64,000 nucleotides of DNA from the NCBI GenBank assembly GCA_945902745.1, contig CAMDNE010000008.1:62001-126000 (forward strand), written 5' to 3'. Shown here one piece after another: positions 6,343-37,794 of the stretch (positions are counted from its first letter, which is position 1; every line of letters starts with the position of its first letter). The notes under the pieces are model-generated. The model saw only the letters and a program-made list of their open reading frames with translations, was not told where the DNA came from and searched no databases. The position numbers and the translations under genes were made by a program. The stretch is from Chitinophaga pinensis. GTDB taxonomy: Bacteria; Bacteroidota; Bacteroidia; Flavobacteriales_D; Crocinitomicaceae.

Positions 6343-8225
6343 TCAACTACTGTTTTATTATGAATCAAGTCACGATTGTAGCGTTGAATTATTGCTTTTA
6401 CACGTTTTTCAACTGCTTTACTTTCCTTTTTATAATAGGAAAGAGAATCGTTCGTTAATACTTTTCGAAAAGTGAAATCATACAAATTTCGTGCCTTTTC
6501 ATTAGTAACCGTGTACATGTGGTGACCTTTGAAGTAGAAACAAGACCCTTCAATGTACGTAATAGCTTCTCTGTCAGCTTTTTTGTAATAAGATTGTCCG
6601 TAGGAATAGAACTTTGTTTTGATGTTTAAAAGGTCTAAAACAGTCGGTAAAATATCCAATTGTTGAAAGATTATAGGCTCACGTTTTATAGGTAAGAGTT
6701 TTTTAGGATGAAAGAATACAATCGGAATTTGATACATGAATCTCCTTTGACCATATAATTTATCGATTGTTGAAGGCGTGTGATCTGCAACCAGAATAAA
6801 AAGTGTATTGTTATACCAAGGTTGTTTTTTTGCTTCTTCGAAGAATTTTCTCAATGAAATGTCGCCGTAATTGACGGAAGCACACATTGGTTGTTTCCCT
6901 TGTTTTACAATTTTTCTCCAATTCGGTGGGATGTAATAGGGGTGATGTGATGACAATGTAAACAACGTTCCGAAAAACGGTTCTTTTAATTTTGTTAATT
7001 GTTTGGCTGTCCAAGGGTTGAAAAATTCATCTAAAATTCCCCACGTTTTATCAAAATGCTTATCGTTATTATATTCTTTTCTTCCAAAATAATGGTCAAA
7101 ACCCGCTTGAGCAGCGAAGCTATTAAAACGCATCGAACCATTTGTTGCACCATGGTAAAATCCTGACTCGTAGCCTTTCTTTTTTAAAATAGAAGCTAAA
7201 GATTCAATTTTATTATTTCCGTATGGAGAAGAAATATAGGGGTTGTCCATTAAACTAGGAATGGAAGCTAAAATAGATGGAACGGCTTCAATTGATTTTT
7301 TACCATTGGCAATACCGTGCTCAAATGTCAAGGATTGTCCAATAAGTGAATCAAAAAATGGCGTAAATGTTCTCTCACCGCTAAAGGCACCAACAAATTC
7401 ATTCCCAAAACTTTCTAACAGGATAATCATCACATTTGTTCCGTCTGGCAAAATATGTTGCGGCTGACTCATTTGAATCGGATTGAAAATGGCTAATTCT
7501 TCCTTTTCAGTATAGTAATGTTTAATTTCCAATCGTTTTTTTCCATACGATTTTAACATCGTAAAAGGCGTGTTTAAAACGAGCGCTGAATTTTCAGGAT
7601 TACTGTATTGTGAAACTTCAATGATTCCAACTGGTTTTAGTTGAAATCCACCGCGACCAATTATAACAAATAGTGGCAAAGCAATTAAAAAATTAAAAGC
7701 TAATGGACGCCAAACTGTTTTGTTTGCTAGGTAAACTTGTTTTGTTTTTCGGTATAACACTTCTGAAAAACCAACGAGAATGATGAGTAAAATAATAATT
7801 ACCCAAAAGTCTTTAATGAAGGTAGTTGCTAATTGTGCAAAATCATTTCCTGCACCTAAAATGGCAAATAAATCGAAGGTTGAACGTTTACTTGTGAACT
7901 TGAAATATTCGAGATCCATTAAATTCAAAGCAAGCATTAAGGTGTTGATGGCATGAAAATAAATTAATAATGTGAACTCCTTAATTCGAAAAAGTTTTTT
8001 TGAAACTGGAATGGAATGAATTAGAATAAAGGGTAAAAAAAACAGCGAAATTGTTATGCAATCAAACCAAGCTGCGACAGCAAATTCATTTAAACCGAGA
8101 TTTGTGAAACTGTCAAAATTGAAATAAAGAAACAACAGTCGTGTGATGGTCATCATGAGGAGAACGATCGACAAACGTTTCAAAAGAATTTTAAAACTGG
8201 ATAAGATTGATTTTTCTTTTTTCAT
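6339..8225 (-). CDS. LTA-synthase-like membrane phosphoglycerol transferase (sulfatase fold)
   Basis: A 628-residue protein with five N-terminal membrane helices (within residues 15-195) and a large extracytoplasmic sulfatase-fold domain. Visible active-site elements are E271 in ILLESFG, the nucleophile segment NGKKSIEA (307-314, candidate Ser311 where LtaS has Thr), HHPY at 427-430 and ADHTPS at 480-485 for the metal site. LtaS and OpgB-type enzymes transfer phosphoglycerol from phosphatidylglycerol and release diacylglycerol. In Bacteroidota the acceptor is unknown; a capsule, glycan or lipid head group is possible. It overlaps the following lipid-kinase gene by 4 bases. Confidence 0.87.
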   Translation of the reverse strand: MKKEKSILSSFKILLKRLSIVLLMMTITRLLFLYFNFDSFTNLGLNEFAVAAWFDCITISLFFLPFILIHSIPVSKKLFRIKEFTLLIYFHAINTLMLALNLMDLEYFKFTSKRSTFDLFAILGAGNDFAQLATTFIKDFWVIIILLIILVGFSEVLYRKTKQVYLANKTVWRPLAFNFLIALPLFVIIGRGGFQLKPVGIIEVSQYSNPENSALVLNTPFTMLKSYGKKRLEIKHYYTEKEELAIFNPIQMSQPQHILPDGTNVMIILLESFGNEFVGAFSGERTFTPFFDSLIGQSLTFEHGIANGKKSIEAVPSILASIPSLMDNPYISSPYGNNKIESLASILKKKGYESGFYHGATNGSMRFNSFAAQAGFDHYFGRKEYNNDKHFDKTWGILDEFFNPWTAKQLTKLKEPFFGTLFTLSSHHPYYIPPNWRKIVKQGKQPMCASVNYGDISLRKFFEEAKKQPWYNNTLFILVADHTPSTIDKLYGQRRFMYQIPIVFFHPKKLLPIKREPIIFQQLDILPTVLDLLNIKTKFYSYGQSYYKKADREAITYIEGSCFYFKGHHMYTVTNEKARNLYDFTFRKVLTNDSLSYYKKESKAVEKRVKAIIQRYNRDLIHNKTVVE

Positions 8226-8304
8226 AGATTAGTGTCAAAATTAGGGATTTTTATCTTTAAGTTTTATAATATTGTAAAACATCAACTAACAAAATCATAA
8301 GAAA

Positions 8305-9165
8305 ATGAAACTACTAGTTACAATCGCACTTCTTTTAGCTTGCTCATTGAATTTAACTGCTCAAAATGATAGAGCATATATTATTTATAATTCGAAAGGA
8401 AAAAAAGTGAGTTATAAAAAGCTGCAAAAAACTGCTTTGGCGCAAGAGTATGTTTTTTTTGGTGAATACCATGATAATCCAATTTCTCATTGGTTGGAAT
8501 TAGAAATGTTGAAGGCTTTATACACAGAACATGGAGCAAAGTTACAAGTTGGATTTGAGATGTTTGAGCAAGATCAACAAATGTTGATGAATGACTATAT
8601 GCAAGGAATTGTCAGCGATAAGTTTTTCAAAGATTCGTGCAGATTATGGCCGAATTACAAAACAGATTATCAACCATTAGTGATGTTTGCGAAAGAAAAT
8701 AAATTGTTTTGTTTGGCATCTAACGTTCCAAGAAGATTTGCTTCACTTTTATTTAAAAGTGGCAGACCAGCATTGGATTCCCTATCTGATTTGGACAAAG
8801 CATATATGTCTCCATTGAATTTTGTAATTGATACAACATTGTCACAATATTCTGCTCTGCAAGAAATGGAAGAACACATGGAAGGAAGTCACTTGATGGA
8901 AGCTCAGGCGTTCAAAGACGCAACAATGTCACATTTTATTATGCTGAATAAAAAACCAGATAATATTGTTTACCATGTAAATGGAGCGTATCATTCAGAT
9001 TTTCATCAAGGAATTGTTTGGTACATTCAACAAGCGCAACCTGCAGCGAAAATCATGACGATTTCAACTGTTTCTCAAGCAAATATTTCAAAATTAGACA
9101 AAGAGAACTTAGGAAAAGGAGATTTTATCATTTGTGTGAATGAGAATATGACGAGTACGCATTAA
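8305..9165 (+). CDS. ChaN-like haem-binding family protein, exported
   Basis: A 286-residue protein with a signal peptide (residues 1-20, ending LTAQ). The family core starts with VFFGEYHDNP at 51-59 and runs through GFEMFEQDQQ and the C-terminal VNGAYHSDFHQGI, the conserved blocks of ChaN (DUF399). Campylobacter ChaN binds haem and has been linked to iron uptake. There is no lipobox Cys, so it is likely periplasmic. The last ten codons form one copy of a 31-bp direct repeat whose other copy lies 2.6 kb downstream beside a terminator, suggesting the gene lost its own terminator when a TonB-receptor gene was inserted behind it. Confidence 0.85.
   Translation: MKLLVTIALLLACSLNLTAQNDRAYIIYNSKGKKVSYKKLQKTALAQEYVFFGEYHDNPISHWLELEMLKALYTEHGAKLQVGFEMFEQDQQMLMNDYMQGIVSDKFFKDSCRLWPNYKTDYQPLVMFAKENKLFCLASNVPRRFASLLFKSGRPALDSLSDLDKAYMSPLNFVIDTTLSQYSALQEMEEHMEGSHLMEAQAFKDATMSHFIMLNKKPDNIVYHVNGAYHSDFHQGIVWYIQQAQPAAKIMTISTVSQANISKLDKENLGKGDFIICVNENMTSTH
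9135..9165 (+). repeat. 31-bp direct repeat, copy 1 (3' end of the ChaN-like gene)
   Basis: Exact 31-base repeat beginning TGTGAATGAG and ending in the stop codon TAA of the ChaN-like gene. The second copy is at 11781-11811, giving an offset of 2646 bases. The flanking bases differ on both sides, so the repeat is exactly 31 bp. Confidence 0.95.
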
Positions 9166-9277
9166 ATTTCCACGATTGTTAAAGAAAGCAATTTTATATT
9201 ACAATTATTCGCAATAAACGTTCTTAATCTTTTCAGTTATTCAAATCATTTTTCGTTCTATCTGAGAATCGGATTTT

Positions 9278-11623
9278 CTAAAACTGTATTTTATAAACTA
9301 CATTCGGGAAAAATCCAAGTTGATAGGTTTTACTGATACCCTGGAGTTTATTGTCATAGCTCAGTGAAAATACATTTTTGTGATTAGTAACATTTTGCAG
9401 ATCCAGTGATAAAGTTTGTGACAGTTTTCGTTTTTTACTGTTCAACGTGAAGCCAGCCTTGAGGTCGAAACGATAATATGTGTCATAGTAACTAGAATAG
9501 ACATCAGCCGAAAGTACTTCATGACCTATTGCTGCAGAAGAAGTTAAATCAATTGGTGTGAAGGCTCTTCCTCCTGCGTTGGTGAATTTAATATCGATCG
9601 AAAAACGATTTCTTTTTTCTTGTCCAATCTTCCATTCTTTACCTGCTAAAATATTGAACACATATCTACCATTAAACGCTGTATTGTGCTCAATTCCGTC
9701 ACTTCCCTTATAAGTTGAATTGTAAACAGAAGCTGTAAATAATCCATAGTATCCTTTACTGAAGAACTTTTCAACCGTAAGTTCCACACCATAATTGGTT
9801 CCCGTGCCATTATTTTCCAAACTGTCAGTTAAATCCGTTTTAAATGTTGCACCTGTATTCAACATGGAGTAATTGCTTGAATAAGAATTAACAGGCACAT
9901 TATAGATGGATTGATAATAAACTTCCGTTTTAATCCGCCAATCATTAAATGGCTGAATGTTATATCCTAAAACAAAATGGTGACTTTTTGTAAAATCTAG
10001 GTTCTTATTATTATATACAGTATTGCCATCAGTATCTATACTTTGTAGGAAATAGACATTTATCGGTTGCATTTGCGAATGTAATCCATAACCAAAATTA
10101 AGGCTGCTTTTAGTGGTTAAATTGTAACTTAATCCCAATCGGGGTTCAATTGAAGTCGAATTATTTAGAAAGAATAGTTGTGAATGTATTCCTGCGTTCA
10201 CCACTAATTTGCTTGTTATTGCGTATTTCAAATGAACAAACGCTTGAGCCAAATTAGTAGTGCTATTGTAATCCCAAATTTGCTTTTCAGGTGCAAAAAT
10301 ATTGTCTTTTGTTTTATAATAAAGGTCTAAGCCAATAATCTCATCTTGAATTCCTGCTTTAAAGAACAGTCGGGAATTTATTTTTAAATTATAATTACTA
10401 CTTAAAAAATAGGTTGTTTTTGCAACGTTACTTACTTCGCGTGTGTATATGCTATCAGCCATTTTGTCGAAGTCATATGCCGTTTGATCAGTGCTCGAAT
10501 AATTAATGCCAACACTAGAAGATATAAAGGATTTTGTATTGATTTGCTTAAAATGACTCAAACCTCCTATTGCTATTTTACTTGCAAAATCAACTTTGTT
10601 TCCGCTCCCATAAAGCGTATTTGATGAACCACCACCGATGTTGATGGTGCTGGAAGCTAAAATCCCGAAAAGTGAGAACCTACCTAATTTGGTAGTGCCG
10701 CTGTTTAATTTAAAAGAAAGATCTTGATAGGAGGGAGTAGCTGTTGTCCCAATATTTACCCCCACAGCTTGAGCTATACCAGCTAATGAATAACGATAGC
10801 CTACTAAATAAGAGGCATCACTTTTTTTACTGAACGGACCTTCTGTTGTTAATTCTAATCCTGTTATCACACCAGCTTGAACTGTTGTTTCTCGTTTTTT
10901 ATTGTTCCCATTTCTCAAACCAAGATCAAAAACACCTGCTGTTGCATTTCCATATTCTGATGGGAAAGCTGAAGTGAAAAAATCAGAATTCTTCAATAAG
11001 TTAGTATTCAATGCACTCACTGCTCCTCCAGTTGTTCCAACAGAAGCAAAATGATTGGGGTTTGTAACATTCATTCCATCTATACGCCATAAAACTCCAA
11101 CTGGCGAATTTCCGCGTATGACAATATCATTTCTACTATCATCAGGTGCGCTAACACCAGCGAAATTAGCGGCTAACCTTGCTGGATCGTTTCTGCCTCC
11201 TGCATAGCGATTCACTTCTTCCATAGAAAAAGTTCTAGCACTTACACTCGCTAATTTATTGATTGTTCCACCTTTGTTAGTTGCTTTAACTGTAATTTCG
11301 TTGAGTTGCCGAAAATCTTCTTCAAGTGCAATATCAAGAATAACTTCTTTTCCAGAAGTCACAACCACATTCGGAATAATGAGTGTTTTATAGCCAAGAT
11401 AACTTATCTTAATTTCATATCGATCTGGTGGTAGCATCGACAAAGAATAATTCCCGTTAGAATCTGAAACTGAACCAATTTGTAAAGATGAAATCTGGAT
11501 ACTTGCTCCAATTATAGGAGTTTGGGATAGTTTGTCGGTGATGCTTCCTCGAATTGTTTGTGTATTGTTTTGACTAAATGAAAGTGTATGAAAAAAGAGA
11601 AAAAAAACAAAAATTCGGTACAT
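9278..11623 (-). CDS. TonB-dependent outer-membrane receptor (not SusC-type)
   Basis: A 781-residue receptor if started at ATG 11623, where a good signal peptide begins (MYRIFVFFLFFHTLSFSQ); an in-frame start 21 bases upstream gives no better signal. The order is signal peptide, carboxypeptidase-regulatory-like domain (about 25-105), plug domain (about 115-240, with IVIRGNSPVGVLWRIDG) and a 22-strand-type barrel ending in an aromatic residue (VVYKIQF). No SusD partner, FecR or sigma factor is adjacent, so the substrate cannot be predicted. The gene lies between the two copies of a 31-bp repeat and appears to be a single-gene insertion between the ChaN-like and AsmA genes. Confidence 0.9.
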   Translation of the reverse strand: MYRIFVFFLFFHTLSFSQNNTQTIRGSITDKLSQTPIIGASIQISSLQIGSVSDSNGNYSLSMLPPDRYEIKISYLGYKTLIIPNVVVTSGKEVILDIALEEDFRQLNEITVKATNKGGTINKLASVSARTFSMEEVNRYAGGRNDPARLAANFAGVSAPDDSRNDIVIRGNSPVGVLWRIDGMNVTNPNHFASVGTTGGAVSALNTNLLKNSDFFTSAFPSEYGNATAGVFDLGLRNGNNKKRETTVQAGVITGLELTTEGPFSKKSDASYLVGYRYSLAGIAQAVGVNIGTTATPSYQDLSFKLNSGTTKLGRFSLFGILASSTINIGGGSSNTLYGSGNKVDFASKIAIGGLSHFKQINTKSFISSSVGINYSSTDQTAYDFDKMADSIYTREVSNVAKTTYFLSSNYNLKINSRLFFKAGIQDEIIGLDLYYKTKDNIFAPEKQIWDYNSTTNLAQAFVHLKYAITSKLVVNAGIHSQLFFLNNSTSIEPRLGLSYNLTTKSSLNFGYGLHSQMQPINVYFLQSIDTDGNTVYNNKNLDFTKSHHFVLGYNIQPFNDWRIKTEVYYQSIYNVPVNSYSSNYSMLNTGATFKTDLTDSLENNGTGTNYGVELTVEKFFSKGYYGLFTASVYNSTYKGSDGIEHNTAFNGRYVFNILAGKEWKIGQEKRNRFSIDIKFTNAGGRAFTPIDLTSSAAIGHEVLSADVYSSYYDTYYRFDLKAGFTLNSKKRKLSQTLSLDLQNVTNHKNVFSLSYDNKLQGISKTYQLGFFPNVVYKIQF

Positions 11624-11780
11624 GTTAAGTTTATAAAATTCCAAGCTGAATTGCCGGAATTTTAATTCAGATGATTATTGTTTCAATTTCTTGCGGCATT
11701 GTTTGAATTAATTCTAACGTTTTTTATTTATGGAATTAGCTTCGATATTCATTTGTGAAGAATTCCGCTAGAAAAAAATC

Positions 11781-11811
11781 TGTGAATGAGAATATGACGA
11801 GTACGCATTAA
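11781..11811 (+). repeat. 31-bp direct repeat, copy 2 (orphan ChaN 3' end)
   Basis: Identical to 9135-9165, that is, the final codons and stop of the ChaN-like gene, here not attached to any gene. It lies directly before the hairpin at 11813-11847, which is where chaN would have ended before the insertion. Confidence 0.95.
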
Positions 11812-11812
11812 G

Positions 11813-11847
11813 AATCGAAAGTCTCAATTTAATTGAGACTTTCGATT
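11813..11847. terminator. Strong bidirectional terminator hairpin
   Basis: A 15-bp perfect stem (AATCGAAAGTCTCAA / TTGAGACTTTCGATT) with a TTTAA loop. It is convergent with the 3' end of the AsmA gene (stop at 11858) and begins one base after the orphan chaN stop codon. It probably once terminated both genes. Confidence 0.85.
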
Positions 11848-11857
11848 ATATCAATAT

Positions 11858-14740
11858 TTACTTCACCTTGTCCGCCTTTTCTCTTGCAGTTGCCATGATA
11901 CCATCGGCTTTTTGATCGCCTTCTTTTTCAATTTTCACTGCGTTAACTTCAGCTTCTTTCTTTAATTTGTTACCAGCCAATTCAGCTGCTTTTTTCTTAA
12001 TTGGATTAGAACCAGCATCTTTTATCAACTGATCTGCTTCTTTTGCCGCAGCGGAACGAACATCGTTTGCTGCTTTTCTTGCAGTTGCTTTCACTTTGTC
12101 TGCTTCTTTTTGAGCGTCATCCAAAATTTGCTGTTTTTTAGCGTTCAAATCTTCTTTGATTTCATTCACCTTTTCTCCAATGATCGCTTTCGCAGAATCT
12201 TTAACTGTTTCTTTGACATTGTTGATGAGGTTTTCTTTCAAATTTCCAGTTGCTTCCATCAACGCCTCTTTGAAATTGTTAGTGATCTTAGGATTCATAA
12301 CTGTTCCACCCATTCCAACTTTCACAGGAAGAAAATCTGGGACTGATTTCAAATTTAATTTTGGAGCCAATTTATTTATTTTAGAAATAGCATCCTCCAC
12401 CGTTTTAATCATAGCCGCTGGAATTTCTTCTTTTGGAATCAACATCTTAATATCATAATTAATGTCTTGTTCGAAAGAGGTAAATCCTGAAACAGTCGTT
12501 TTAATTTTCCCCATGTTCACATCAAATGGTTTCACATTGATTTTCCCATCTGCAAATTGGAATTTCGCTTTTACATCTTTCACCGTTTGAGAAGAAAGTT
12601 TGTTCATGTTCAACGCTTCGCCCATTTTCTCTAATGGTTTGAATCCAGAAATGGTCAATGTATTGGTTGCAAAATCACCTAAACCTGTTAGAGAAGCGTA
12701 AATTGGTTCCATTGAAGCTGTTAAATCTGATTTCATTTTAAAATCTGAACTAATTTTCCCTTTACAGAATTTAGCGATTGGAGCTAATTTTTCGATTGTC
12801 AAGAAATTATCCGCCAATTGTTTTACATCTATTTCTTTTAACGAATAAGCGAAGTTGATTTTCGGTTTTCTGTGGTCTTTGGTATCATAACTTCCATCCA
12901 AGCCAATTGTTCCACCCATTGCGTTCATTGTCAAATTATCCAATGAAGCAACTTCTTCTTTCATTTTAACTGCTCCTTTTACATTTTTAATATCCATTTT
13001 ATTATATCTCAATGTATTGATTGAAGTATTCAACAAAAAGTCAATATTATCTGGAATTAATGTTGGTTCAGCTGTTGCTGGCGCTGCTTCCGTTTTTGCA
13101 GCATCGGTTGCTGGAGCAGCTTCGCTTGTAGGAACGATATTCATCAATTGATCGATATCCAAATAGTTACTGTTAAACGTGAAATTCCCTTTTAGCAATT
13201 CATCACGGAACATATATCCCATGTAATTGTCAATTTTACCATTCATCTGAAAATCAGATTTCCCGGTTTTAGCTATAAGTTTTTCTAAACTCAAGTTTTG
13301 AGGAGAAAATCTAAAAATCATGTCTGTGATATTTACATCTTCATTCAAGTCTTTGGTTTTATAAATCATGTTCATTAATTCCAACGTACCTGACGCTTTA
13401 AATGCTTCATAATCTCCTCTGTCCAACGCGCTCATTTTGCCATTAATATCAACATCAGCATTCAGTTTTCCCGTATACGATTCGCCTTCAGCCATTGGCA
13501 TTACTTTTTTCAATGTTGCTAAATCTACTTTCGCTTTGATTTTTGAAACCAATAATGGATCGGTCATTGGATTACGCATTTTCAAATTAGCATCAATTGT
13601 ATTTCCAACAAAGTCAGCATGGAATTTATCTACATCAATCGTCATTTTATCCATGTCTGCACCTCCAGCGAATTTAGATCCTGCTTTCACCAAAATATTT
13701 GTGATTGTTCCAGGAAGATCTGGATATTTGATAGATGCTTTGTCGACATTCAATTTGAAATCCCAACCTGGCATGTTTTTATCGTCCATGATTCCTTTCA
13801 CTTCACCACCTAATTCTAGGTTTCCTTTTGAAATCATACTTTCATATCCTGATTGGTAGAAAGCTGGAATCAAGGATAAAAATTCTTTGAACGTTGCTTT
13901 TGATGCATTCAATTTCAAATCCATGTTGTCTTTGTCTTCTAACATTTCATAGAATCCATCGACAGAAAAAGTCAAGGCATTTAATTTAAAAGAATTGTCT
14001 TTTAACGTGAATTTGGATGATTTCTCAGTGAATTCGATCAATATATTGGCAATAACATCTGTTTTTACATCTGTTAAGTATGAAACACCGTCCATGTCAA
14101 ACGTGATTTTATCCATGTTCGTTGTTGTTTCAAAATCGATCACATCAGCAGTTAAATCACCTGTTCCTGTATGATTTAAATTCTTGATGTTCATTGCCAT
14201 GTCAGACGATTGATCATCGTAATTGATATTCGCATTTGAAATACTATATTCTTTTAATGAAAGTTTGAAATTCGAAGGTTCAGAAACTTCTTCTGGAGTT
14301 TTAACGGAATCTGGCTTCACAATATCGTAATTTGCTAGGCCGTCACTTAAAACGCGCACATCAAAAGAAGGATCAATTAAATGAATTTCATCTATTTCAA
14401 CTTGATCACCAGATACAACACTCCAAAAATCTACATGTGCAACGAATTGTTTAATATTTGCCAATTCAACACCTTTGAATTTATCCATTCCAACCAATTT
14501 TGCATCGTTTAACTCGATGGTCATGTTGGGGAACGTACTTAAAAACGTTAAATCAAAATCGCCAAGAGATAATTTCGCATTCAAAGATTTATTTACCTCT
14601 TTAATAACCAATTCTTTGATTTGGTCTTTGAAAAGTATCGGTGTGATAATTAATATAATCAATAAGAAAAGGAATGTAAATCCTGTCCATTTTAATATTC
14701 TTCTTAAAAGGCTTTTTTTCTTCTTTACTTTCGTGCTCAT
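11858..14740 (-). CDS. AsmA-family protein with long C-terminal coiled coil
   Basis: A 960-residue protein anchored by one N-terminal membrane helix (about residues 15-38, after a KVKKKKSLLRR stretch). It is followed by the AsmA N-terminal motif (LNAKLSLGDFDLTF) and long repetitive beta-strand DUF3971/AsmA-like repeats typical of periplasmic lipid-transfer bridges. A low-complexity Ala/Pro/Thr/Glu linker lies near residues 540-562. The last about 120 residues are a Lys/Ala/Glu-rich heptad coiled coil (KEDLNAKKQQILDDAQKEAD and on). E. coli relatives (TamB, YhdP, AsmA) support outer-membrane lipid homeostasis. It is convergent with the inserted TonB-receptor region. Confidence 0.88.
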   Translation of the reverse strand: MSTKVKKKKSLLRRILKWTGFTFLFLLIILIITPILFKDQIKELVIKEVNKSLNAKLSLGDFDLTFLSTFPNMTIELNDAKLVGMDKFKGVELANIKQFVAHVDFWSVVSGDQVEIDEIHLIDPSFDVRVLSDGLANYDIVKPDSVKTPEEVSEPSNFKLSLKEYSISNANINYDDQSSDMAMNIKNLNHTGTGDLTADVIDFETTTNMDKITFDMDGVSYLTDVKTDVIANILIEFTEKSSKFTLKDNSFKLNALTFSVDGFYEMLEDKDNMDLKLNASKATFKEFLSLIPAFYQSGYESMISKGNLELGGEVKGIMDDKNMPGWDFKLNVDKASIKYPDLPGTITNILVKAGSKFAGGADMDKMTIDVDKFHADFVGNTIDANLKMRNPMTDPLLVSKIKAKVDLATLKKVMPMAEGESYTGKLNADVDINGKMSALDRGDYEAFKASGTLELMNMIYKTKDLNEDVNITDMIFRFSPQNLSLEKLIAKTGKSDFQMNGKIDNYMGYMFRDELLKGNFTFNSNYLDIDQLMNIVPTSEAAPATDAAKTEAAPATAEPTLIPDNIDFLLNTSINTLRYNKMDIKNVKGAVKMKEEVASLDNLTMNAMGGTIGLDGSYDTKDHRKPKINFAYSLKEIDVKQLADNFLTIEKLAPIAKFCKGKISSDFKMKSDLTASMEPIYASLTGLGDFATNTLTISGFKPLEKMGEALNMNKLSSQTVKDVKAKFQFADGKINVKPFDVNMGKIKTTVSGFTSFEQDINYDIKMLIPKEEIPAAMIKTVEDAISKINKLAPKLNLKSVPDFLPVKVGMGGTVMNPKITNNFKEALMEATGNLKENLINNVKETVKDSAKAIIGEKVNEIKEDLNAKKQQILDDAQKEADKVKATARKAANDVRSAAAKEADQLIKDAGSNPIKKKAAELAGNKLKKEAEVNAVKIEKEGDQKADGIMATAREKADKVK

Positions 14741-29318: not shown

Positions 29319-30095
29319 ATGATCAGTAAATTAGCATCCGTATCAGCAGAAGCAACTATAGGTGAAAACGTAATTGTTGAACCATTTTCAACGATTTATG
29401 AAGATGTTGTAATCGGTGCTAGGACAAAAATCCATCCGAATGTTTGCATATATCCTGGAACTCGAATTGGAGAAGATTGTGAAATTTTCCCAGGTGCTGT
29501 AATTGGTGTAATTCCCCAAGATTTAAAATTTGAAGGAGAATATACAACTGTCGAAATTGGAAATAATACTGTAATCAGAGAATGCGTTACGATTCATCGC
29601 GGTACCAAGGACAAATGGAAAACAAGTATTGGCAATAATTGCCTTTTAATGACATACGTGCATGTTGCGCACGATTGTCAAATTGGAAACAACGTTATTC
29701 TTGCTAGTTATGTTGGGCTTTCTGGGCATGTTCAAATTGACGATTTTGCAATTTTAGAAGGAACGGTTGTTGCGCAACAATTTGTACATATCGGAAGTCA
29801 TACGTTTATTGGAGGAGCTTCTCTAGTTCGAAAAGACATACCACCGTTTATTAAAGCAGCAAGAGAGCCGCTTACATTTATTGGTGTAAATGCCGTTGGA
29901 TTGCGTCGAAGAGGCTATTCAGATGAACAAGTAAAGGAGATAGAAGATATCTATAGAATGCTTTACATTCAAAACAACAATATCTCAAAAGGAATTGAAG
30001 CAATTAAAGAGAATATGGCTGATACAGCAATTCGTAAGTTGATTCTTGATTTCGTTGAAAGTTCCGATAAAGGAATTATTCGTGGAATGATTTAA
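29319..30095 (+). CDS. lpxA: UDP-N-acetylglucosamine O-acyltransferase
   Basis: LpxA (258 aa) transfers the first 3-hydroxyacyl chain from ACP to UDP-GlcNAc. Left-handed beta-helix hexapeptides cover residues 1-185, and the catalytic His is H118 in VHVAHDCQIGN. The C-terminal helical domain includes LRRRGYSDEQVKEIEDIYR, typical of LpxA. It starts one base after the lpxC-fabZ stop and completes the lpxD-lpxC/fabZ-lpxA operon. The downstream gene is convergent; no clear terminator hairpin is seen in the 29-base gap. Confidence 0.96.
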   Translation: MISKLASVSAEATIGENVIVEPFSTIYEDVVIGARTKIHPNVCIYPGTRIGEDCEIFPGAVIGVIPQDLKFEGEYTTVEIGNNTVIRECVTIHRGTKDKWKTSIGNNCLLMTYVHVAHDCQIGNNVILASYVGLSGHVQIDDFAILEGTVVAQQFVHIGSHTFIGGASLVRKDIPPFIKAAREPLTFIGVNAVGLRRRGYSDEQVKEIEDIYRMLYIQNNNISKGIEAIKENMADTAIRKLILDFVESSDKGIIRGMI

Positions 30096-30124
30096 ACTTA
30101 AAACAAACAATTTTCTTTAGAGAA

Positions 30125-31894
30125 CTAATTTGGAATGACTAACTGAATAATTGTACCATCTTCAAGATTACTATTTAATTCAAAGCTTCCTTTAATCCCA
30201 AGAATTCTACTTTCGATTGTATTGAGTCCAAAACCTTTAGGAGTAATTGATTTATTAAATCCTTTTCCGTTGTCAGTATATTGAAAAATATATGAATCCG
30301 TATAGTTATAAAATTCTATTTGTATTTCTGATGGATTCGCATGTTTAAGAGCATTAGAAATTAATTCGAGTGAAACAAGATAAATAACACATGCTAATTT
30401 TTTTTCTATAAAATCTGGGAAATCAAACGTGTTTAATTCAATCTTGCAATTATCTACTCCCTCGTTTAAAAGATTAATTTGAGATTGTAAAGCTGAAATT
30501 AATGCTCCATCATCCAATGCTTTCGGCATGATTTGATGAGAAAGATTTCTCAAATCTTTTGTGATTTCATGAATATTAGATAGTGCCATTTTATTTTTTT
30601 CTAATTCTAATAATTGAGAAATGTAACTTAATTTACTTCCGAATTGATCATGTAAAATATTTGCGATTTGCAAACGCTCCTTAATTTGTAATTCTGTAAT
30701 TGTTGAAATCATTTGTTCTTTTTGCACAATAATATCCTTATTCAATAAGTTATTTTTATGAAATATTTCAAAATAATTTTTTGTCAGTATAAAGCCAAAA
30801 ATTAATACTTCATAAACTGAAATAATTACCAACCAATCTGTGTGAATCTCTGCAGGTATCAATTTAAACGCCTTAAGAATGATTGATAATGCCCAAATGA
30901 TATTTGGGATAAAAGCGATTAAAATATACAGCGAATTGGTTTTGTTTATTTTGTAGTTTTTGACAGTGGCCCAAAGTGTAAGTAGAATTACTCCGATAAA
31001 ATTCAAATATCCAAGAATTGAAAATATATTAAGCCATTCCTTCCTTCCAGTTATTACCATCATCAATGTGATAATTATTATCAGGAAATTCAAACAGTTC
31101 AAAATTAGTATGAATCTGTATTTTTTAATTTGAGTCTCATTTAAACGAAGAAAATGAGATACAAATAACGTTAGATTGATAAACCAAAGACTAGCAATAT
31201 ATATTCTGAACTCACTGAAATAAACAAAAAATGGAAATAAAAAGAATTTTGCAAAACCGGTTGTGATCATTACATAACATGCCGTAAGTATAGAATTTGA
31301 AATGTAAAGAAGATAAACTTTTTGTTTGTTTATAATGAATAGAATTGCATTGAACAAGATTAATAAAAAAATGATTCCTAGTAGAAAGGATATGAGAAAG
31401 ATAGTTTGTTTCGTGTCTTTTGTTAGCGTTTTTTCCGAACGAAATTGGAAAGAAAAATTCATGAATGAGATTCCTTTTTTAATTCGGATAACATAGTGTT
31501 TTTCTGCTTTTGAAGCTAAAGTTATTGGAAAAGCATATGATGTCAAAAAAGGGCTGATTCGTTGAGTTCGATCACCTAATAGCATTACTGATTTTCCACG
31601 ATAAAACTGAATACTATCCAATTGATTATTGTCTAGACAGAACCATGTTTTTAGTGGGAAAGATTGTTCATTTTTTAGTTTAAGAATACACCAAACGGCA
31701 GCATTTTTATTATATCCTATATTGATATTTTCATTCCTTTTAAAAGGAATGAATTTTTCACTTGATAAGTCTGTGATTGTAAGATTAGAGGTGCTATCAA
31801 GAAAATAACTTGCTTCATATTTTATTTCTCCTTTGTTTTGAGCGGATAAAAGAAGACTGAAAAACAAGAAACTAATCAATAATACTATTCTCAT
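30125..31894 (-). CDS. 7TMR-DISM sensor histidine kinase
   Basis: A 589-residue kinase if started at ATG 31894 (signal peptide MRIVLLISFLFFSLLLSAQ); a start two codons upstream is possible. The order is signal peptide, periplasmic 7TMR-DISMED2-type beta domain (about 20-165), seven membrane helices (about 170-380), and a cytoplasmic HisKA_3 dimerisation domain with the phospho-His in IANILHDQFGSKLSY (about 415). The HATPase domain has ISNALKHANPSEI, YTDNGKGF and GFGLNTIESRI. The sensor class often senses extracellular carbohydrates or similar ligands. It overlaps the 3' end of its response-regulator gene by about 23 bases, so the two form a pair. Confidence 0.92.
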   Translation of the reverse strand: MRIVLLISFLFFSLLLSAQNKGEIKYEASYFLDSTSNLTITDLSSEKFIPFKRNENINIGYNKNAAVWCILKLKNEQSFPLKTWFCLDNNQLDSIQFYRGKSVMLLGDRTQRISPFLTSYAFPITLASKAEKHYVIRIKKGISFMNFSFQFRSEKTLTKDTKQTIFLISFLLGIIFLLILFNAILFIINKQKVYLLYISNSILTACYVMITTGFAKFFLFPFFVYFSEFRIYIASLWFINLTLFVSHFLRLNETQIKKYRFILILNCLNFLIIIITLMMVITGRKEWLNIFSILGYLNFIGVILLTLWATVKNYKINKTNSLYILIAFIPNIIWALSIILKAFKLIPAEIHTDWLVIISVYEVLIFGFILTKNYFEIFHKNNLLNKDIIVQKEQMISTITELQIKERLQIANILHDQFGSKLSYISQLLELEKNKMALSNIHEITKDLRNLSHQIMPKALDDGALISALQSQINLLNEGVDNCKIELNTFDFPDFIEKKLACVIYLVSLELISNALKHANPSEIQIEFYNYTDSYIFQYTDNGKGFNKSITPKGFGLNTIESRILGIKGSFELNSNLEDGTIIQLVIPN

Positions 31895-32510
31895 GTGCAA
31901 ATTGAATTAAGGAACCAATTGTTTTTAATTCTAGTTTTCGATTGATATTTCTTCGATGCGTATCGACAGTTGCTTTTGTAATGAAAAGAATTTCGCCTAT
32001 CTCTTTGCTCGTTTTTCCTTTAACTATCCATTTAATGATTTCTTTCTCTTGTTTGGATAATTTTAACTTTTGAACTGAAAATTCTTTTGAGCCAACTATC
32101 TTCTGGTTCGTTGAGGATTTTTTTAAAGTTGAATAAAACGGTGCGTTTTTCTTTAATTCTATTGCAGTAATAATGTCTTCAATAGTTGAATCCTTCGTTA
32201 AATATCCATTGAATCCCATTTTGCTCGCTTTCAATTCAAGAAAATCTTCGTAGTACGAGGTCAATAAAAAAACACTTGTTTTAGTAATATTTGATTTTAC
32301 AATTTCAAAAATTTCAAAACCAGTTTTTTGATCTATGTTTATGTCACATAAAAAAACATCGAAGTGGACCTCTTTTAATTGTTGAATACCAGCAATTGAA
32401 TCAGAAACGGTTGTTACTTCAAAACCTCGGTTTTTTAACATTTCACTCAAACTTGCACTAAAGAGGGTGTGATCGTCACAAATAAGTATTTTTTTTGTTG
32501 ACATTTTCAT
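31872..32510 (-). CDS. LuxR/NarL-type response regulator
   Basis: A 212-residue regulator. The receiver domain (about 6-125) has the acidic pair ICDDH, the phospho-acceptor Asp in VFLCDINID (about residue 55) and the conserved Lys in YLTKDST. The C-terminal LuxR-type helix-turn-helix runs over about 148-208 (LSKQEKEIIKWIVKGKTSKE through TVDTHRRNINRKL). It starts divergently from the accessory cluster of secreted proteins, with a 226-base AT-rich gap between them, and is followed by the overlapping kinase gene. Control of the neighbouring secreted-protein genes is possible but is only a positional inference. Confidence 0.93.
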   Translation of the reverse strand: MKMSTKKILICDDHTLFSASLSEMLKNRGFEVTTVSDSIAGIQQLKEVHFDVFLCDINIDQKTGFEIFEIVKSNITKTSVFLLTSYYEDFLELKASKMGFNGYLTKDSTIEDIITAIELKKNAPFYSTLKKSSTNQKIVGSKEFSVQKLKLSKQEKEIIKWIVKGKTSKEIGEILFITKATVDTHRRNINRKLELKTIGSLIQFAHENSIID

Positions 32511-32736
32511 TGAAATATTTTAAAACTTAATTTCAAAGATTGTAAAAAAATATGATTTAGTTGTGTAAAATCTAATTTAAACATAAGCAGTTTGTTTACA
32601 GGTACATAAATGGTTGGTTTATATTTTTCTCGTTTTTTTTTTAAATTAAAATCATTATTAATAGGTATTGTGAGATTTTTAAAAATGAAAGATATTTGCT
32701 TTGTCTTAAATTATTAATAATACGTAAAGTTGAAAT

Positions 32737-33120
32737 ATGAAATATTTGAAATTATTTTTATTTGTAATTCCAGTCTTATTCACTTCTTGCAAGAAAGAAG
32801 AAAAAAGTGGATACGGGAATTATATTATCAGTTTCAGTAATTATACAACAACTCAATATTATGTAACTGTAAAATTGGATGGAGTTTCTCAAGGAGCGTT
32901 TAGTATTCAAGCAAATATGTCAGTAAGTTGGAATACAACTTCCCCCTGCGATGATTTAGTGCAAAGTTCAACGATGGATAATGTTCGAATATTGACTTTA
33001 GTACCAAATGGAGATCATACATTGGAAATAATTGACAATTATGATAATTCAACTATGTTTACTACATCCTTTAGTCTTGATGCTGATGAATGTAGTCATC
33101 AACCATATATCATAAATTAG
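32737..33120 (+). CDS. Small lipoprotein, first gene of the accessory cluster
   Basis: A 127-residue lipoprotein: signal peptide with lipobox LFTSC (Cys at residue 18) followed by KKEEKSG. The mature part is strand-rich with Tyr/Thr repeats (SNYTTTQYYVTVKLDG) and two later cysteines (SPCDD, ADECSH) that could form a disulfide. It looks like a compact beta-sandwich. The overall plan matches the broken lipoprotein gene at 35169-35517 (lipobox, K/E-rich spacer, VTVxxDG-type strand, late Cys), so the two may be relatives. Function unknown. Confidence 0.72.
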   Translation: MKYLKLFLFVIPVLFTSCKKEEKSGYGNYIISFSNYTTTQYYVTVKLDGVSQGAFSIQANMSVSWNTTSPCDDLVQSSTMDNVRILTLVPNGDHTLEIIDNYDNSTMFTTSFSLDADECSHQPYIIN

Positions 33121-33166
33121 GAATAAACATGTTATTCATGATAGCCATGGGATTCCATGAAAATTC

Positions 33167-33325
33167 TTGACTTTTAGTATAAAAACCATTATTATACTTT
33201 TATTAAGTATTGTTTGTGTCTTTAATTCTGTTGCACAAAGTTATAATATTAATATCACAAATTTAGAACAACCGGATTCTCGAAACGAAGTAAATAAAAC
33301 AAATTTCACCCACGGGTGCGAATAA
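33167..33325 (+). pseudogene. Possible remnant of a secreted-protein gene
   Basis: A 52-codon frame with only a TTG start begins with a convincing signal sequence (KTIIILLLSIVCVFNSVAQ) but stops after about 27 mature residues (SYNINITNLEQPDSRNEVNK, then a short tail with one Cys). No ATG is in frame; an ATG 13 bases upstream is in another frame. It could be a short secreted peptide, but the missing start and early stop look more like the 5' remnant of a larger gene. The next gene starts 10 bases later. Confidence 0.4.
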
Positions 33326-33335
33326 TTGAATCAAA

Positions 33336-33740
33336 ATGAAAAAAATAATTATCCTAATCCTGTTTGCTGCAATGTCAGTAAACGTAGCAACTGCACAAAA
33401 TCCGAACGAAGTAGAATCCAAAGCGGTATTTAATTTAATTTTTGGATCCGGATCATCTAATGGAATTGTCATTAATGAAACAGATCAACAAAAAGCCAAA
33501 ATGTTACTTCAGGAATTGATTCAGAAATCCTGTCAGATGTCTATGGCAGAAGGGTTGTTGGAAAGCGCGTATTCTTTCGATCCGAGTATTTCGGGAATTG
33601 TAAAATCTATTATCAGTAGCTATTATACCAATTGTAACGAGGGAGCTAAAAACGGAAAATACTATGAATCCGTGCGCACAACAATTGCCCGAAATTGGAA
33701 ATCCGCTTTCGCGGTTAGAAAACAAACGGATGAATGGTAA
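33336..33740 (+). CDS. Small secreted protein of unknown function
   Basis: A 134-residue protein with signal peptide MKKIIILILFAAMSVNVATAQ. The mature part is mainly helical, with two cysteines (QKSCQMSMAEG and TNCNEGAKNG) that may pair, and a basic C-terminus (RTTIARNWKSAFAVRKQTDEW). I recognise no family. It does not share the mature sequence of the other cluster members. It lies 10 bases after a gene remnant and about 80 bases before the two-domain secreted protein. Confidence 0.68.
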   Translation: MKKIIILILFAAMSVNVATAQNPNEVESKAVFNLIFGSGSSNGIVINETDQQKAKMLLQELIQKSCQMSMAEGLLESAYSFDPSISGIVKSIISSYYTNCNEGAKNGKYYESVRTTIARNWKSAFAVRKQTDEW

Positions 33741-33823
33741 TTATCAAATTGTTTACGGTCTAAAAATGAAACTCTTAACTAAACTTTTGAATCAAAATAA
33801 TGAAAACAACAAAAACAAAATTT

Positions 33824-34612
33824 ATGAAAAAAGCAATTGCACTAGTATCCGTACTTTTAATGTTAATCCCAAGCACGGGATTCGGTGCAGAAGTTGGGTC
33901 AACACCGACAAATGATGAACAATTTATTTTTATTGTCGCGTACCCTGGCAACCAAAACAACAGTGCAACCAGTTATGTAAGTGGTATTATAGAATACAAT
34001 GGTTATGATGCCTGTAGTAAAGACAGTTATAATTCAGTTTCAAGTGAGCAATTATTTTCAGAAGCAGGACGTAAATTTTTAAGTTACCTAGAATCTGAAT
34101 ATGGTTTGAACAAAAATGAATGGAAAACTCAGTATAAAGATCAAATGGCATTTTCAGATTATCCGTCAGGTTATTTTAAAGGATACGAAACAAAAGCCAA
34201 GGCACAATATGAGTTAGATTTATATTTACGAAATAACGATCGCATCCAACCTACAAGTTTTACTTATAAATGTCTTCTAGATTATAGCTCAAAGAGTACG
34301 TCCGCCCCAGTACAAAATAAAGCGGAGGGCAAAGCATGGTGGTGTACTTATTATATTAAAAATGACAATACCGTATATATAAGCAAAGTTTATAATAACG
34401 ACTGTAACTATTGCCAGAATGAAATCGCTGCCGATTTTGTAAAATGGCTTATTCTAAATGATTATGACAACCAAGCAACAACACTTCACGTCACAAGTTT
34501 GAGTGATGTAAATGAATCTGATCTCGAAGAAAGACGCGAGAAATATATCATTGACCGTAAACAAAAAAACTACTCTGTAATTAATGTTGGATTTACGTAT
34601 ACCGAAAACTAA
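33824..34612 (+). CDS. Secreted protein with two copies of a roughly 100-residue domain
   Basis: I start at ATG 33824 (262 aa), where the signal peptide MKKAIALVSVLLMLIPSTG begins, rather than at an in-frame ATG 24 bases upstream. The mature protein appears to hold two related domains (about 28-125 and 145-262). Each has an aromatic first strand (FIFIVAYPG / WWCTYYIKND), a helix near FLSYLESEYG / FVKWLILNDY, a second helix, and a final strand TSFTYK / VGFTYTEN. One copy of the same plan is the mature part of the gene at 37263-37643. Cysteines pair plausibly within each copy. Function unknown. Confidence 0.7.
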   Translation: MKKAIALVSVLLMLIPSTGFGAEVGSTPTNDEQFIFIVAYPGNQNNSATSYVSGIIEYNGYDACSKDSYNSVSSEQLFSEAGRKFLSYLESEYGLNKNEWKTQYKDQMAFSDYPSGYFKGYETKAKAQYELDLYLRNNDRIQPTSFTYKCLLDYSSKSTSAPVQNKAEGKAWWCTYYIKNDNTVYISKVYNNDCNYCQNEIAADFVKWLILNDYDNQATTLHVTSLSDVNESDLEERREKYIIDRKQKNYSVINVGFTYTEN

Positions 34613-34707
34613 AGGATGGTATTTGATTTTTGTTTCCAAAAACTTCAATTTAAGAAATACAAGAATAGCTGATTCGAAAAATTTAATTAATAATAAATAG
34701 AAATAGC

Positions 34708-35151
34708 ATGAAAAAAATAATCTCAATTTGCCTGTTAGTGGTAACAACTTTTACTGTCAAAGCACAAGATATGAGCTTTGAAGAAACAGTGAAGTATATT
34801 AATGAGAAGATCGCATGTTGTGGTTACGGTAGCTTTTCTCAATTTCCTAAAGAAGCTAATTTAGGGGGAGATATCGAATGGTTTGATGGGGGGCGTAACA
34901 GCATAAACCTTTTTGACTTAGTGTCAGTAACTACCGATGAAGATCACCTCTTAAATAATAATGGAATTTCATTGGTTAAGGGATATTGGAATGGACAACC
35001 TGGTTTATTTAGAATTGAATTTCAAAAAACAAAAGAAAGATCAATCGTTTTTCACGCATTCGAATCTCAATTGGATGCCGAGCGCATTTATAAAGCTTTG
35101 TTACATTTAAAAAGTCTCTGTACTAAAAAGAAAGACCCATTTGATAAATAA
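34708..35151 (+). CDS. Secreted paralogue, CC...DPFDK family (member 1)
   Basis: A 147-residue protein with signal peptide ending VKAQ. The mature part has an N-terminal helix FEETVKYINEKIACC, central strands with INLFDL, and a C-terminal helix DAERIYKALLHLKSLC followed by TKKKDPFDK. The gene at 36837-37256 shares these blocks almost residue for residue, although the central 70 residues differ strongly. Helix, beta sheet and capping C-terminal helix suggest a PH-like fold; that is inference. Function unknown. Confidence 0.75.
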   Translation: MKKIISICLLVVTTFTVKAQDMSFEETVKYINEKIACCGYGSFSQFPKEANLGGDIEWFDGGRNSINLFDLVSVTTDEDHLLNNNGISLVKGYWNGQPGLFRIEFQKTKERSIVFHAFESQLDAERIYKALLHLKSLCTKKKDPFDK

Positions 35152-35168
35152 AAATAACTATATACTAA

Positions 35169-35517
35169 ATTAAAAAACTATAAAAAAATAATTGGTTTAT
35201 GCTTCGCTGTATTAATTCTCAATTCTTGCGAAAAAGAGCCTGAAACTCAATTAGTAACCGTTTATGTTGGAAACTGCGGTACAGCAGGTGTATGGGGATA
35301 TGTTTCTGTAACAATAAATGGAAATACGGAGAACTTTTTTACTCCTGAAAGCAGTAATATGGAGATTTATAATTGTAGTAGAGATAATTCAAATGCATGT
35401 TTTTTTGACCTTTACCCAGGCTCTTATACTTATAATGCATCTGATGGTGGAACTAATTGGGAAGGAACAATTACGGTAACTGAAGGTAACTGTCCAATTT
35501 TAGAATTATCCTATTAA
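35169..35517 (+). pseudogene. Lipoprotein gene without a usable start (one-base frameshift in the leader)
   Basis: A frame open to TAA at 35517 encodes a clear lipoprotein: a hydrophobic leader IIGLCFAVLILNSC with the lipobox Cys, then KEPETQLVTVYVG and a strand-rich domain with several cysteines. No ATG, GTG or TTG precedes it in frame. Deleting the T at 35181 would join ATT AAA AAA CTA to AAA AAA ATA, restoring a normal leader, but beginning with ATT (35169) in place of ATG. Two lesions at the start imply a recently inactivated gene, or a sequencing error plus a non-canonical ATT start. Confidence 0.6.
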
Positions 35518-35529
35518 AATTTAATCATT

Positions 35530-36222
35530 ATGACAAAATTAAGAAGAATTACAAAAGCTTTGTTGATACTAGTTTTTATTTGTGGTATTAGTAAAACTTA
35601 TGCTCAGGAAACACAAACCTTGGCACAGGATAAACTGGATGTCTTCTCTGCGATTTATCCTATTTTAGACAACGCACAAAAGGTTTATACGTCATCTGGT
35701 AAATATGATCAAATTCAAAGTTGGGGACTTGATGGCGATAACGACTGTTACTATTGGTTTTATTCTTATGCGGGAACTATGGAACCGGGTAAGGAGAACG
35801 AAAAGTACACAGGTTACGATAAAGTATGGGTAGATTTCTCTAAAATTACATACGTAAGTTCAGGAACAACGAATTTCGGATATAAATGCGTTGTACTTTA
35901 CGGTGAATCTGAAAGTATCAAATATCAAACAAGCAATTTTGATGATTATGGTAATAGAAGTGGAATGGGGGATTTCAATTACGCTAGTGAAATAACTCTT
36001 CCCATAGATAGCAAGGAATTGGTAAGTCAATTTAGTTCATTAGCTAAATTATGCAAACAAGAAAGAGAAAGTAATCCAACAGAGTTCACCGGATTAACTC
36101 CACCGCAGATGAATTATTCTACGTATGAAGAACCATGGATAATGAAGGATGAAGCCCCATTAATAGTTGGACTAGTAGGAGGAGGTATAGTTGTAGTTTT
36201 ACTGTTATTGCTCATGAAATAG
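35530..36222 (+). CDS. Exported protein with C-terminal membrane anchor
   Basis: A 230-residue protein with signal peptide (ending TYAQ) and a second hydrophobic helix at the extreme C-terminus (VGLVGGGIVVVLLLLLMK), so the domain between is probably anchored on the outer face of the inner membrane. The soluble domain has strands (WVDFSKITYVS, YKCVVLYGES) and a last helix ELVSQFSSLAKLCKQER. The helix resembles the capping helix of the neighbouring KAL-x-HL family. Function unknown. It starts 12 bases after the broken lipoprotein gene. Confidence 0.7.
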   Translation: MTKLRRITKALLILVFICGISKTYAQETQTLAQDKLDVFSAIYPILDNAQKVYTSSGKYDQIQSWGLDGDNDCYYWFYSYAGTMEPGKENEKYTGYDKVWVDFSKITYVSSGTTNFGYKCVVLYGESESIKYQTSNFDDYGNRSGMGDFNYASEITLPIDSKELVSQFSSLAKLCKQERESNPTEFTGLTPPQMNYSTYEEPWIMKDEAPLIVGLVGGGIVVVLLLLLMK

Positions 36223-36275
36223 GATTTATGTACTCCTTATTCAGCATAGAATAAATTAAAAAAAAATCAGAGCAA

Positions 36276-36301
36276 GCCGAAAATTAGGATAGAGAGTCGG
36301 T
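36276..36301 (+). promoter_or_regulatory. Conserved leader element GCCGAAAAT...AGTCGGT (copy 1)
   Basis: GCCGAAAAT at 36276-36284 and AGTCGGT at 36295-36301 can pair (GCCGA/TCGGT, one G-U). The same two blocks in the same order lie before the paralogue at 37823, and the surrounding DNA is also similar. No T-run follows, so it is more likely a leader or regulatory structure than a terminator. Confidence 0.45.
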
Positions 36302-36341
36302 GATATTATTAAATTAATAAAAACAGTAATACCACAAAAAA

Positions 36342-36821
36342 ATGAAGAAACTAATTACAATTTGCCTTTTAGTTGCAACAACTTTTTCTGTAAACGCACA
36401 AACAAAACCTACAAAAGAGGAAACCCTGGCTTTTTTAAGAAGGACCTGTGAATCAACGATTGGAAAAACATCTGACGATAAAAAATTTATAAAAACAACT
36501 TTTAGCTATAACAACATTACAACTGAATATCTTTACATGGGTTATGAAGATAGCAGCATTGATGAATTTTCGTTGATCAAGTGGGAGAATGCTACGGAAA
36601 TACTTATGTGGGAACATAGTACAGGAGATGAACAGGAGATAAGTGATGTTATGATCAAATTTTCAAGCCAGGTATTATTGGAACAGAATGGGGGGACAGG
36701 GGAATACAGGGACAGCGTATATTTTTATTACCCCGAGATAAAACGGGAAAGTGTAAAAAAAGCAATTGAGCGCTTAATAGAAATAGCCAAAGAAGAAAAC
36801 AAAGACCCATTTCAGGATTAA
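36342..36821 (+). CDS. Secreted paralogue, TKEET family (member 2)
   Basis: A 159-residue protein whose signal peptide (MKKLITICLLVATTFSVNAQ) differs from that of the gene at 37823 at only three residues, and whose first 60 bases match that gene at about 52 positions. The mature part starts TKPTKEETLAFLR, has central beta-rich sequence and ends with a helix VKKAIERLIEIAKEENKDPFQD. The final DPFQD parallels DPFDK in its neighbours. The central sequence is unlike the other members. It is followed 15 bases later by the next paralogue, so they are co-transcribed. Confidence 0.72.
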   Translation: MKKLITICLLVATTFSVNAQTKPTKEETLAFLRRTCESTIGKTSDDKKFIKTTFSYNNITTEYLYMGYEDSSIDEFSLIKWENATEILMWEHSTGDEQEISDVMIKFSSQVLLEQNGGTGEYRDSVYFYYPEIKRESVKKAIERLIEIAKEENKDPFQD

Positions 36822-36836
36822 TTGCAATTAAAAACC

Positions 36837-37256: not shown

Positions 37257-37262
37257 AAAATT

Positions 37263-37643: not shown

Positions 37644-37704
37644 ATTCACAATGAATGAATTATTCTCAAGAAAAAAATTTAGTTTAAACACTAAAATAAC
37701 AATC

Positions 37705-37735
37705 TTAAAAACTAATCACAATTTGCCTTTTATTG
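37705..37735 (+). pseudogene. Orphan signal-peptide fragment of the paralogue family
   Basis: These 31 bases resemble the start of the paralogue genes (compare AAAAACTAATCACAATTTGC with AAAAACTAATAACAATTTGT at 37823), but there is no ATG and the frame stops soon after. The stretch lies in a non-coding gap between two intact family members and is best read as the scar of a deleted member. Confidence 0.5.
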
Positions 37736-37765
37736 ATATGTAAAAGACAATATCTTACTGAGTAA

Positions 37766-37794
37766 GCCGAAAATCTGAATTACTTATAGTCGGT
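37766..37794 (+). promoter_or_regulatory. Conserved leader element GCCGAAAAT...AGTCGGT (copy 2)
   Basis: GCCGAAAAT at 37766-37774 and AGTCGGT at 37788-37794, 28 bases before the start of the paralogue at 37823. The spacing between the blocks is 13 bases, against 10 in copy 1. The flanks (AGTAA before; AAAAACAATTAT after) are also similar to copy 1. Confidence 0.45.

Follow-up and report, generated by a model that had tools for sequence, protein, structure and literature searches.

In a 64,000-nucleotide (nt) stretch of Chitinophaga pinensis DNA (hereafter the window), part of contig C8 of a 3.46-Mb source genome (G000), the gene for a TonB-dependent receptor lies between two identical 31-nt copies of the 3' end of a neighboring chaN-like gene. 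Comparison with relatives gives good support for insertion of the receptor behind chaN. Because empty, same-cargo and other-cargo alleles of this site exist, and because such duplications recur at lpxA and an ostA-like gene, the explanation that we favor, with about an even chance of being right, is that recombinase-free insertion-duplication at a gene 3' end brought a horizontally acquired receptor and its upstream element behind chaN, followed by homologous exchange of the filled allele. The locus is arranged as follows:

8305–9165, plus strand: chaN-like target gene, 286 amino acids (aa), matching the ChaN profile PF04187
9135–9165, plus strand: repeat copy 1, the final 31 bases of chaN, TAA stop included
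9166–11780: inserted segment of 2615 base pairs (bp), present in genome G021, absent from G023 and replaced by other DNA in G006
11781–11811, plus strand: repeat copy 2, contiguous with the hairpin and asmA, read as the displaced native chaN 3' end
11813–11847: strong symmetrical hairpin in the gap between copy 2 and asmA, from folding
11858–14740, minus strand: AsmA-like gene, the original convergent neighbor of chaN (its match to the NCBIfam AsmA profile is weak, far below the cut-off)

The two copies agree at 31 of 31 nt with an offset of 2646, and this pair is the sole direct-repeat family of at least 18 nt reported for window positions 7000–14000. Copy 2 lies outside every open reading frame (ORF) of at least 100 aa, and a single base separates it from the hairpin, whose fold starts at 11813 and has energies of −21 and −22.1 kcal/mol on the two strands (z about −7). 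An earlier note on this DNA had described both the exact repeat of the chaN end, stop codon included, 2646 bases downstream and the position of the second copy, in no gene and one base before a hairpin; identity, coordinates and fold agree with it. A search allowing up to three mismatches finds the 31-mer in 4 of the genus's 26 genomes, at chaN sites only, with two copies each in G000, G021 and G006 and one in G023, and it has no exact match among viral contigs. A dispersed repeat unrelated to chaN, which the earlier note had raised as a contrary possibility, is therefore rejected. ORFs whose 3' end recurs as an exact 17-nt copy within 12 kb numbered 2 of 396, 1 of 458 and 2 of 402 in the fetched sequence of G000, G021 and G006, respectively, with chaN among them in each genome. 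The repeat pair at chaN is not due to chance. An Rfam search of positions 9100–12000 returned nothing up to an E-value of 1.

The interval between chaN and asmA in relatives supports an insertion. In G023 (L065), chaN is followed by ~110 bp with a different hairpin and then by asmA, with neither a receptor nor a second 31-mer, and in three further genomes of the genus (L077, L078, L079) the gap from chaN to asmA is below 70 bp. In G021 (L064) the arrangement is that of the window, receptor and both 31-mers included. In G006 (L066), the order is chaN, a minus-strand 106-aa gene, a second 31-mer with one mismatch to this genome's own chaN end, a near-identical counterpart of the window's hairpin, and asmA; ~300 bp of unrelated DNA (L066:7662-7962) stand there in place of the start of the chaN upstream region. 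Elsewhere in the genus, the interval is occupied by a 136-aa gene in G008 and by other genes totaling 7.6 kb in G003, chaN is followed by a transposase-like gene (labeled by eye) up to the contig end (G002), and asmA is missing beside chaN in several relatives. Gene content between chaN and asmA thus varies across the genus in the manner of a hotspot. A second copy of the genome's own chaN end was found in G021 and G006 and not at the other 25 of 27 chaN loci, several of which are short, and at least one window neighbor is kept at all 20 chaN loci of the genus. The insertion that the earlier note expected from this comparison is borne out by the empty site in G023 and the short intervals of L077–L079, and the three kinds of allele among relatives fit its module of one receptor gene placed behind chaN with duplication of the chaN end. 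Its proposal that chaN once ended at the hairpin opposite the AsmA gene needs a correction: the two genes are adjacent in G023, but the hairpin there is a different one, and that of the window is seen in G000, G021 and G006.

The minus-strand receptor is the single gene between the 31-mers, and an element upstream of it accompanies it:

9278–11623, minus strand: TonB-dependent receptor, 781 aa from its ATG; a TTG start at 11644, the program's choice, is also possible
11651–11696, minus strand: conserved element upstream of the receptor, CCGCAAG-N16-CATCTNAA-...-GCAA, traveling with the gene in an alignment of 14 genomes

The protein has a CarboxypepD_reg-like domain, a plug and a beta-barrel; PF00593 scores above its cut-off and PF07715 slightly below (23.3 versus 23.9 bits). 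This profile search showed the receptor only, in keeping with the earlier note's statement that the insert holds no transposase or integrase. The upstream element is conserved in 14 genomes although their surroundings are otherwise unrelated, and a loose pattern for it matched only at the receptors of G000, G021 and G006 in 1.8 Mb of fetched DNA. It has no Rfam match up to an E-value of 1 and is a possible operator or leader.

Close orthologs of the receptor (at least 78% identity) are present in 15 of the 26 genomes, G000 included. None of the 13 receptor loci outside G000 and G021 carries any of ten window neighbors in the 6.6–19.9 kb around the receptor, while close genome pairs have its location in common and G006 and G019 share some neighbors. 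These scattered places could have come from a genus-wide breakdown of gene order, but we rejected this because chaN retains a neighbor at 20 of 20 loci. Taken together, these comparisons of neighbors identify the receptor as an accessory gene that changes place. As a correction to the earlier note, the receptor is no one-off module, since orthologs sit elsewhere in 13 genomes of the genus. Plasmid records gave 32 matches to the receptor, every one below 60% identity.

Divergence at fourfold sites bears on how the filled allele came to be shared. Between G000 and G021, these sites differ at a frequency of 0.084 in the receptor (27/322) versus 0.28 in the flanks (234/839, five genes pooled; Fisher p = 3e-14). 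The tract of low divergence, placed at ~9109–11863, reaches slightly beyond both repeats, as would be expected from homologous exchange of the filled allele. Between G000 and G006, by contrast, the receptor is 81% identical in DNA versus 87.7 and 88.6% for the flanks of chaN, and fourfold sites differ at 0.544 versus 0.22 in chaN, the sole comparator for G006. Four control pairs gave 0.22–0.50 for the receptor and 0.39–0.64 for the core genes tested. The low divergence of the insert between G000 and G021, together with the high divergence of the receptor between G000 and G006, suggests that the receptor was acquired horizontally and exchanged: the receptor of G000 and G021 is probably not the vertical counterpart of that in G006, and the filled allele probably came to be shared after the flanks of G000 and G021 had begun to diverge.

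The window contains a second case, behind lpxA:

30079–30096, plus strand: copy 1, lpxA 3' end, TTCGTGGAATGATTTAAA
30097–39717: 9.6-kb insert behind lpxA with a sensor kinase, a response regulator and small proteins of unknown family; absent from G021
39718–39735, plus strand: copy 2, displaced lpxA 3' end, TTTGTGGAATGATTTAAA; the bases downstream match the sequence downstream of lpxA in G023

The duplicated length at lpxA is ~18 bp, or 27 bp when the empty site is aligned with it, and the far copy is seen directly to be the displaced native end, from the match of its downstream bases to G023. The native next gene follows lpxA after 7–777 bp in G021 and 14 others of 21 genomes examined; the other six, G000 and G023 among them, have no such neighbor of lpxA within the available stretch. 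Pfam detected no recombinase in the 10 of 14 ORFs of the insert that were scanned. The response regulator is of the LuxR type by Pfam, and several of the small proteins in 30097–39717 have similar N-termini.

A third case comes from G021, where an ostA-like gene carries a 102–104-bp repeat around a 0.93-kb insert with a 178-aa gene. (The names ostA, ftsY, aminotransferase, kinase, subtilase, lipoprotein and 'secreted' are provisional, some of them assigned by eye.) Neither G000 nor any of five aligned outgroups has an insert at this site, the outgroups showing 40–100 bp between the aligned blocks, and the insert yielded one KilA-N fragment and neither a transposase nor an integrase. Judged from the sequences, the genus has several times acquired genes behind core-gene ends, in inserts where no enzyme of a mobile element was detected, and the chaN insertion belongs to a small recurrent pattern at three genes. 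Visual comparison suggests a similar start for the chaN and lpxA repeats, near TGTG(G)AATGA (TGTGAATGA, TCGTGGAATGA; far lpxA copy TTGTGGAATGA), which the ostA repeat lacks.

We surveyed insertions and deletions (indels) in fetched sequence from G000, G021 and G006 (310, 131 and 114 kb aligned pairwise). A difference was kept if it reached 250 bp and lay between blocks that were each 250 bp or longer and more than 76% identical; some loci appear in two comparisons. Of 56 rows, 44 replace an intergenic spacer without a duplicated border, 12 have some duplication and 5 have at least 13 bp. Two of these five are firm (ostA and lpxA), and the others are a weak 13-bp ftsY-like case, an A+T-rich one and a dispersed repeat. 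Since none of the three genomes has an empty site at chaN, that locus is listed as a replacement. Separately, orphan gene ends were sought across 1240 ORFs. Copies of 3' ends accounted for 13 hits, of which 11 lie downstream and several share one locus; copies of 5' ends accounted for 5, 3 of these within one small-protein family. Hits in same-strand ORFs of at least 150 aa had been dropped as paralogs, which removed 10 of an initial 23 for 3' ends and 27 of 32 for 5' ends, and the short lpxA copy, being under the cut-off, is absent from the list.

Several candidates were set aside as weak or different: the ftsY-like gene (13 bp with mismatches), a site at G000:C2 199412 (21 bp, A+T-rich and poorly matching), intergenic repeats in G021:C5 and tandem kinase-like paralogs in G006:C2. 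Behind the ftsY-like gene stands a 1558-aa gene (44434–49345) that is missing from G021; its borders suggest an imperfect 13-bp copy of the ftsY-like 3' end, and it contains 198-bp-spaced repeats near 47953–48359. In G006:C10 (L205, 1-293 and 4020-4311), the 3' end of a response-regulator-like gene and the sequence downstream are duplicated over 293 bp at 96.6% identity around a 753-aa and a 177-aa gene, with the outer copy at the contig start; this is a possible further case. So, perhaps, is an orphan aminotransferase-like 3' end directly after the intact gene in G000 (C2 284592-284966) and G021 (C10 27090-27480), which would be older. A dispersed repeat of 60–90 bp with GTTAGCGG-type palindromes (L120:6684-6773; L150, L151, L153, L154) lies near variable genes in G000, G021 and G006.

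From these cases we infer the molecular step of the insertion. Incoming DNA ending in a 3' part of chaN would join where chaN ends, through one crossover of a short circle or by one-sided homology with an illegitimate joint on the opposite side. chaN would stay intact and a duplicate of its 3' end would be left behind, with a length fixed by the position of the joint; the far copy at chaN would then be the displaced native end. Ordinary homologous recombination may subsequently have carried the filled allele from one of the sister species, G000 and G021, to the other, as their divergence suggests. The borders have one near-constant and one variable side: relative to the stop codon, the duplicated stretch ends at 0 nt at chaN in G000 and in G006, at 1 nt at lpxA and at ~30 nt at ostA, and the other border varies to give duplicated lengths of ~18, 31, perhaps 43, and 102. 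Entry of the kind described fits these borders; a target duplication of fixed length does not. The agreement of both ostA copies of G021 at positions where G000 differs, and the base that both chaN copies of G006 carry and G000, G021 and G023 lack, also speak for this step. A laboratory precedent exists: Escherichia coli receiving a plasmid that bears the lacZ end acquired lacZ-end duplications of 109–950 bp in 14 sequenced clones (PMC3240628). There, the diagnostic duplication product appeared in 56 of 60 clones analysed, and the authors attributed such outcomes to one crossover by a trimmed circle.

Searches for the enzymes of other routes gave little. Pfam and NCBIfam profiles found no transposase or integrase in the chaN inserts (the receptor and the G006 cargo), and tyrosine recombinase genes are present, but elsewhere in the genomes. 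The insert ends have no inverted repeat of at least 18 nt, shorter ones having been sought only by eye. Ku was found in 0 of 4 genomes, two of them incomplete, with a search that among 14 control genomes matches in B. subtilis; classical end joining is therefore unlikely, and we disfavor it.

A number of observations weigh against insertion-duplication followed by exchange. Firstly, the survey is mostly of another kind, with a duplicated border shorter than 13 bp in 51 of 56 indel rows. Secondly, repeats of 18–31 bp are short for RecA crossovers, and we found no donor with the receptor beside chaN outside G000 and G021, nor a circle. Thirdly, G000 and G006 have an apparent left border, TGTGAATG, in common despite their different cargo. 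Fourthly, the longest exact direct repeat at the receptor's 13 other loci is 15 nt (flanks up to 1.5 kb). Finally, the receptor protein tree groups the genomes into the close pairs that ostA also gives, which indicates that within such pairs the receptor is mostly inherited, and its history may be largely vertical with a changing place; the one G006 comparator, chaN, is itself unusually similar to that of G000; and the control pair G007/G004 is also low at the receptor (0.22 versus 0.42–0.63).

The main rival is template switching, or break repair, at the gene end: replication would have stalled where chaN ends, at the hairpin, switched to foreign or distant DNA, and returned to its original template 31 bases upstream, making a homologous donor end unnecessary. 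This reading accounts for the alleles, since both copies bear those of the recipient (in the ostA repeat of G021 both copies agree at positions where G000 differs), and for right borders that lie one base from the hairpin at chaN and just past a by-eye palindrome at ostA. A variable repeat length and the lack of Ku also suit it, but the accessible literature yielded no bacterial case of this kind, and we consider it unlikely.

We regard as doubtful, to much the same extent, a single ancestral duplication behind chaN in the G000/G021/G006 group whose cargo was later swapped by recombination at the repeats. It is favored by the identical right border, the near-identical hairpin and the apparent left border of G006, found with a different cargo, and recombination may have touched chaN itself, which is 92.7% identical between G006 and G000, closer than either of its flanks. 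However, a T-to-C change occurs in both G006 copies and in none of G000, G021 and G023, the second G006 copy is possibly longer by 12 bases on its left side, where 9 of 12 positions agree (chance ~0.014), and the cargo ends show by eye no residual homology at either border. Because of the shared base and the possibly longer duplicate in G006, we lean toward independent insertions in G000 and G006.

Appreciably less probable than either is a dedicated, undescribed and cargo-agnostic route of this genus that would dock single genes or small blocks behind core genes, at many gene ends, and regenerate the 3' end each time, leaving repeats of 18–100 bases, possibly through a recombinase encoded elsewhere or the transformation machinery. 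Slightly more improbable still is a site-specific recombinase acting in trans, which would insert non-autonomous cassettes at gene 3' ends and restore the end as genomic-island integrases do. Direct repeats containing a target 3' end do resemble attL and attR, tyrosine recombinases are encoded elsewhere in the genomes, and the chaN and lpxA repeats seem by eye to start alike; yet no such enzyme is among the insert proteins scanned, the ostA repeat starts differently, the repeats are of unequal length, and the cargo ends have no common arm by eye. Transposition with an unusually long target-site duplication would explain direct repeats around the insert, but with no transposase, no terminal inverted repeat of at least 18 nt, and repeat lengths that range among genes from ~18 to 102 bp, it is very improbable.

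Many gene-gain hotspots of bacteria lack a recognized mobile element (PMC5635113), and the route by which genes enter such sites is inferred indirectly. Here, paired gene ends and empty sites in relatives may preserve the scars of entry at three genes of one genus. Such scars would make the gene-entry step readable from sequence and testable in the laboratory, and they come with a surface receptor that shifts place and species as a single gene.

Several known systems resemble these insertions in part. Tyrosine recombinases integrate genomic islands at the 3' ends of genes. Like such islands, the inserts are bounded by direct repeats through which the target gene regains its 3' end; unlike them, they showed no integrase, and separate targets carry separate repeats. 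A second comparison is with acquisition hotspots that lack mobile elements and are diversified by recombination at flanking core genes (Oliveira et al., 2017, PMC5635113). Our loci have in common with these hotspots differing accessory genes within the same core pair and no integrase found, with possible signs of recombination in or beside a flanking gene, and they differ in their duplicated gene ends (31, ~18 and ~102 bases), of which the double-crossover model set out there would leave none. The third is single-crossover or homology-facilitated illegitimate recombination, in which foreign DNA likewise arrives at a gene end that is partly duplicated over a variable length (PMC3240628). The cargo here is natural and the minimum is 18–31 bp, as against a laboratory plasmid and 109–950 bp there, and the illegitimate events of that report gave deletions. 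We found no literature report of natural gene-end duplications of this kind, a weak negative given that most subscription papers lie outside the coverage. The hotspot phenomenon itself is already known (PMC5635113), and preserved gene-end duplications at several natural loci represent a less familiar variant of it.

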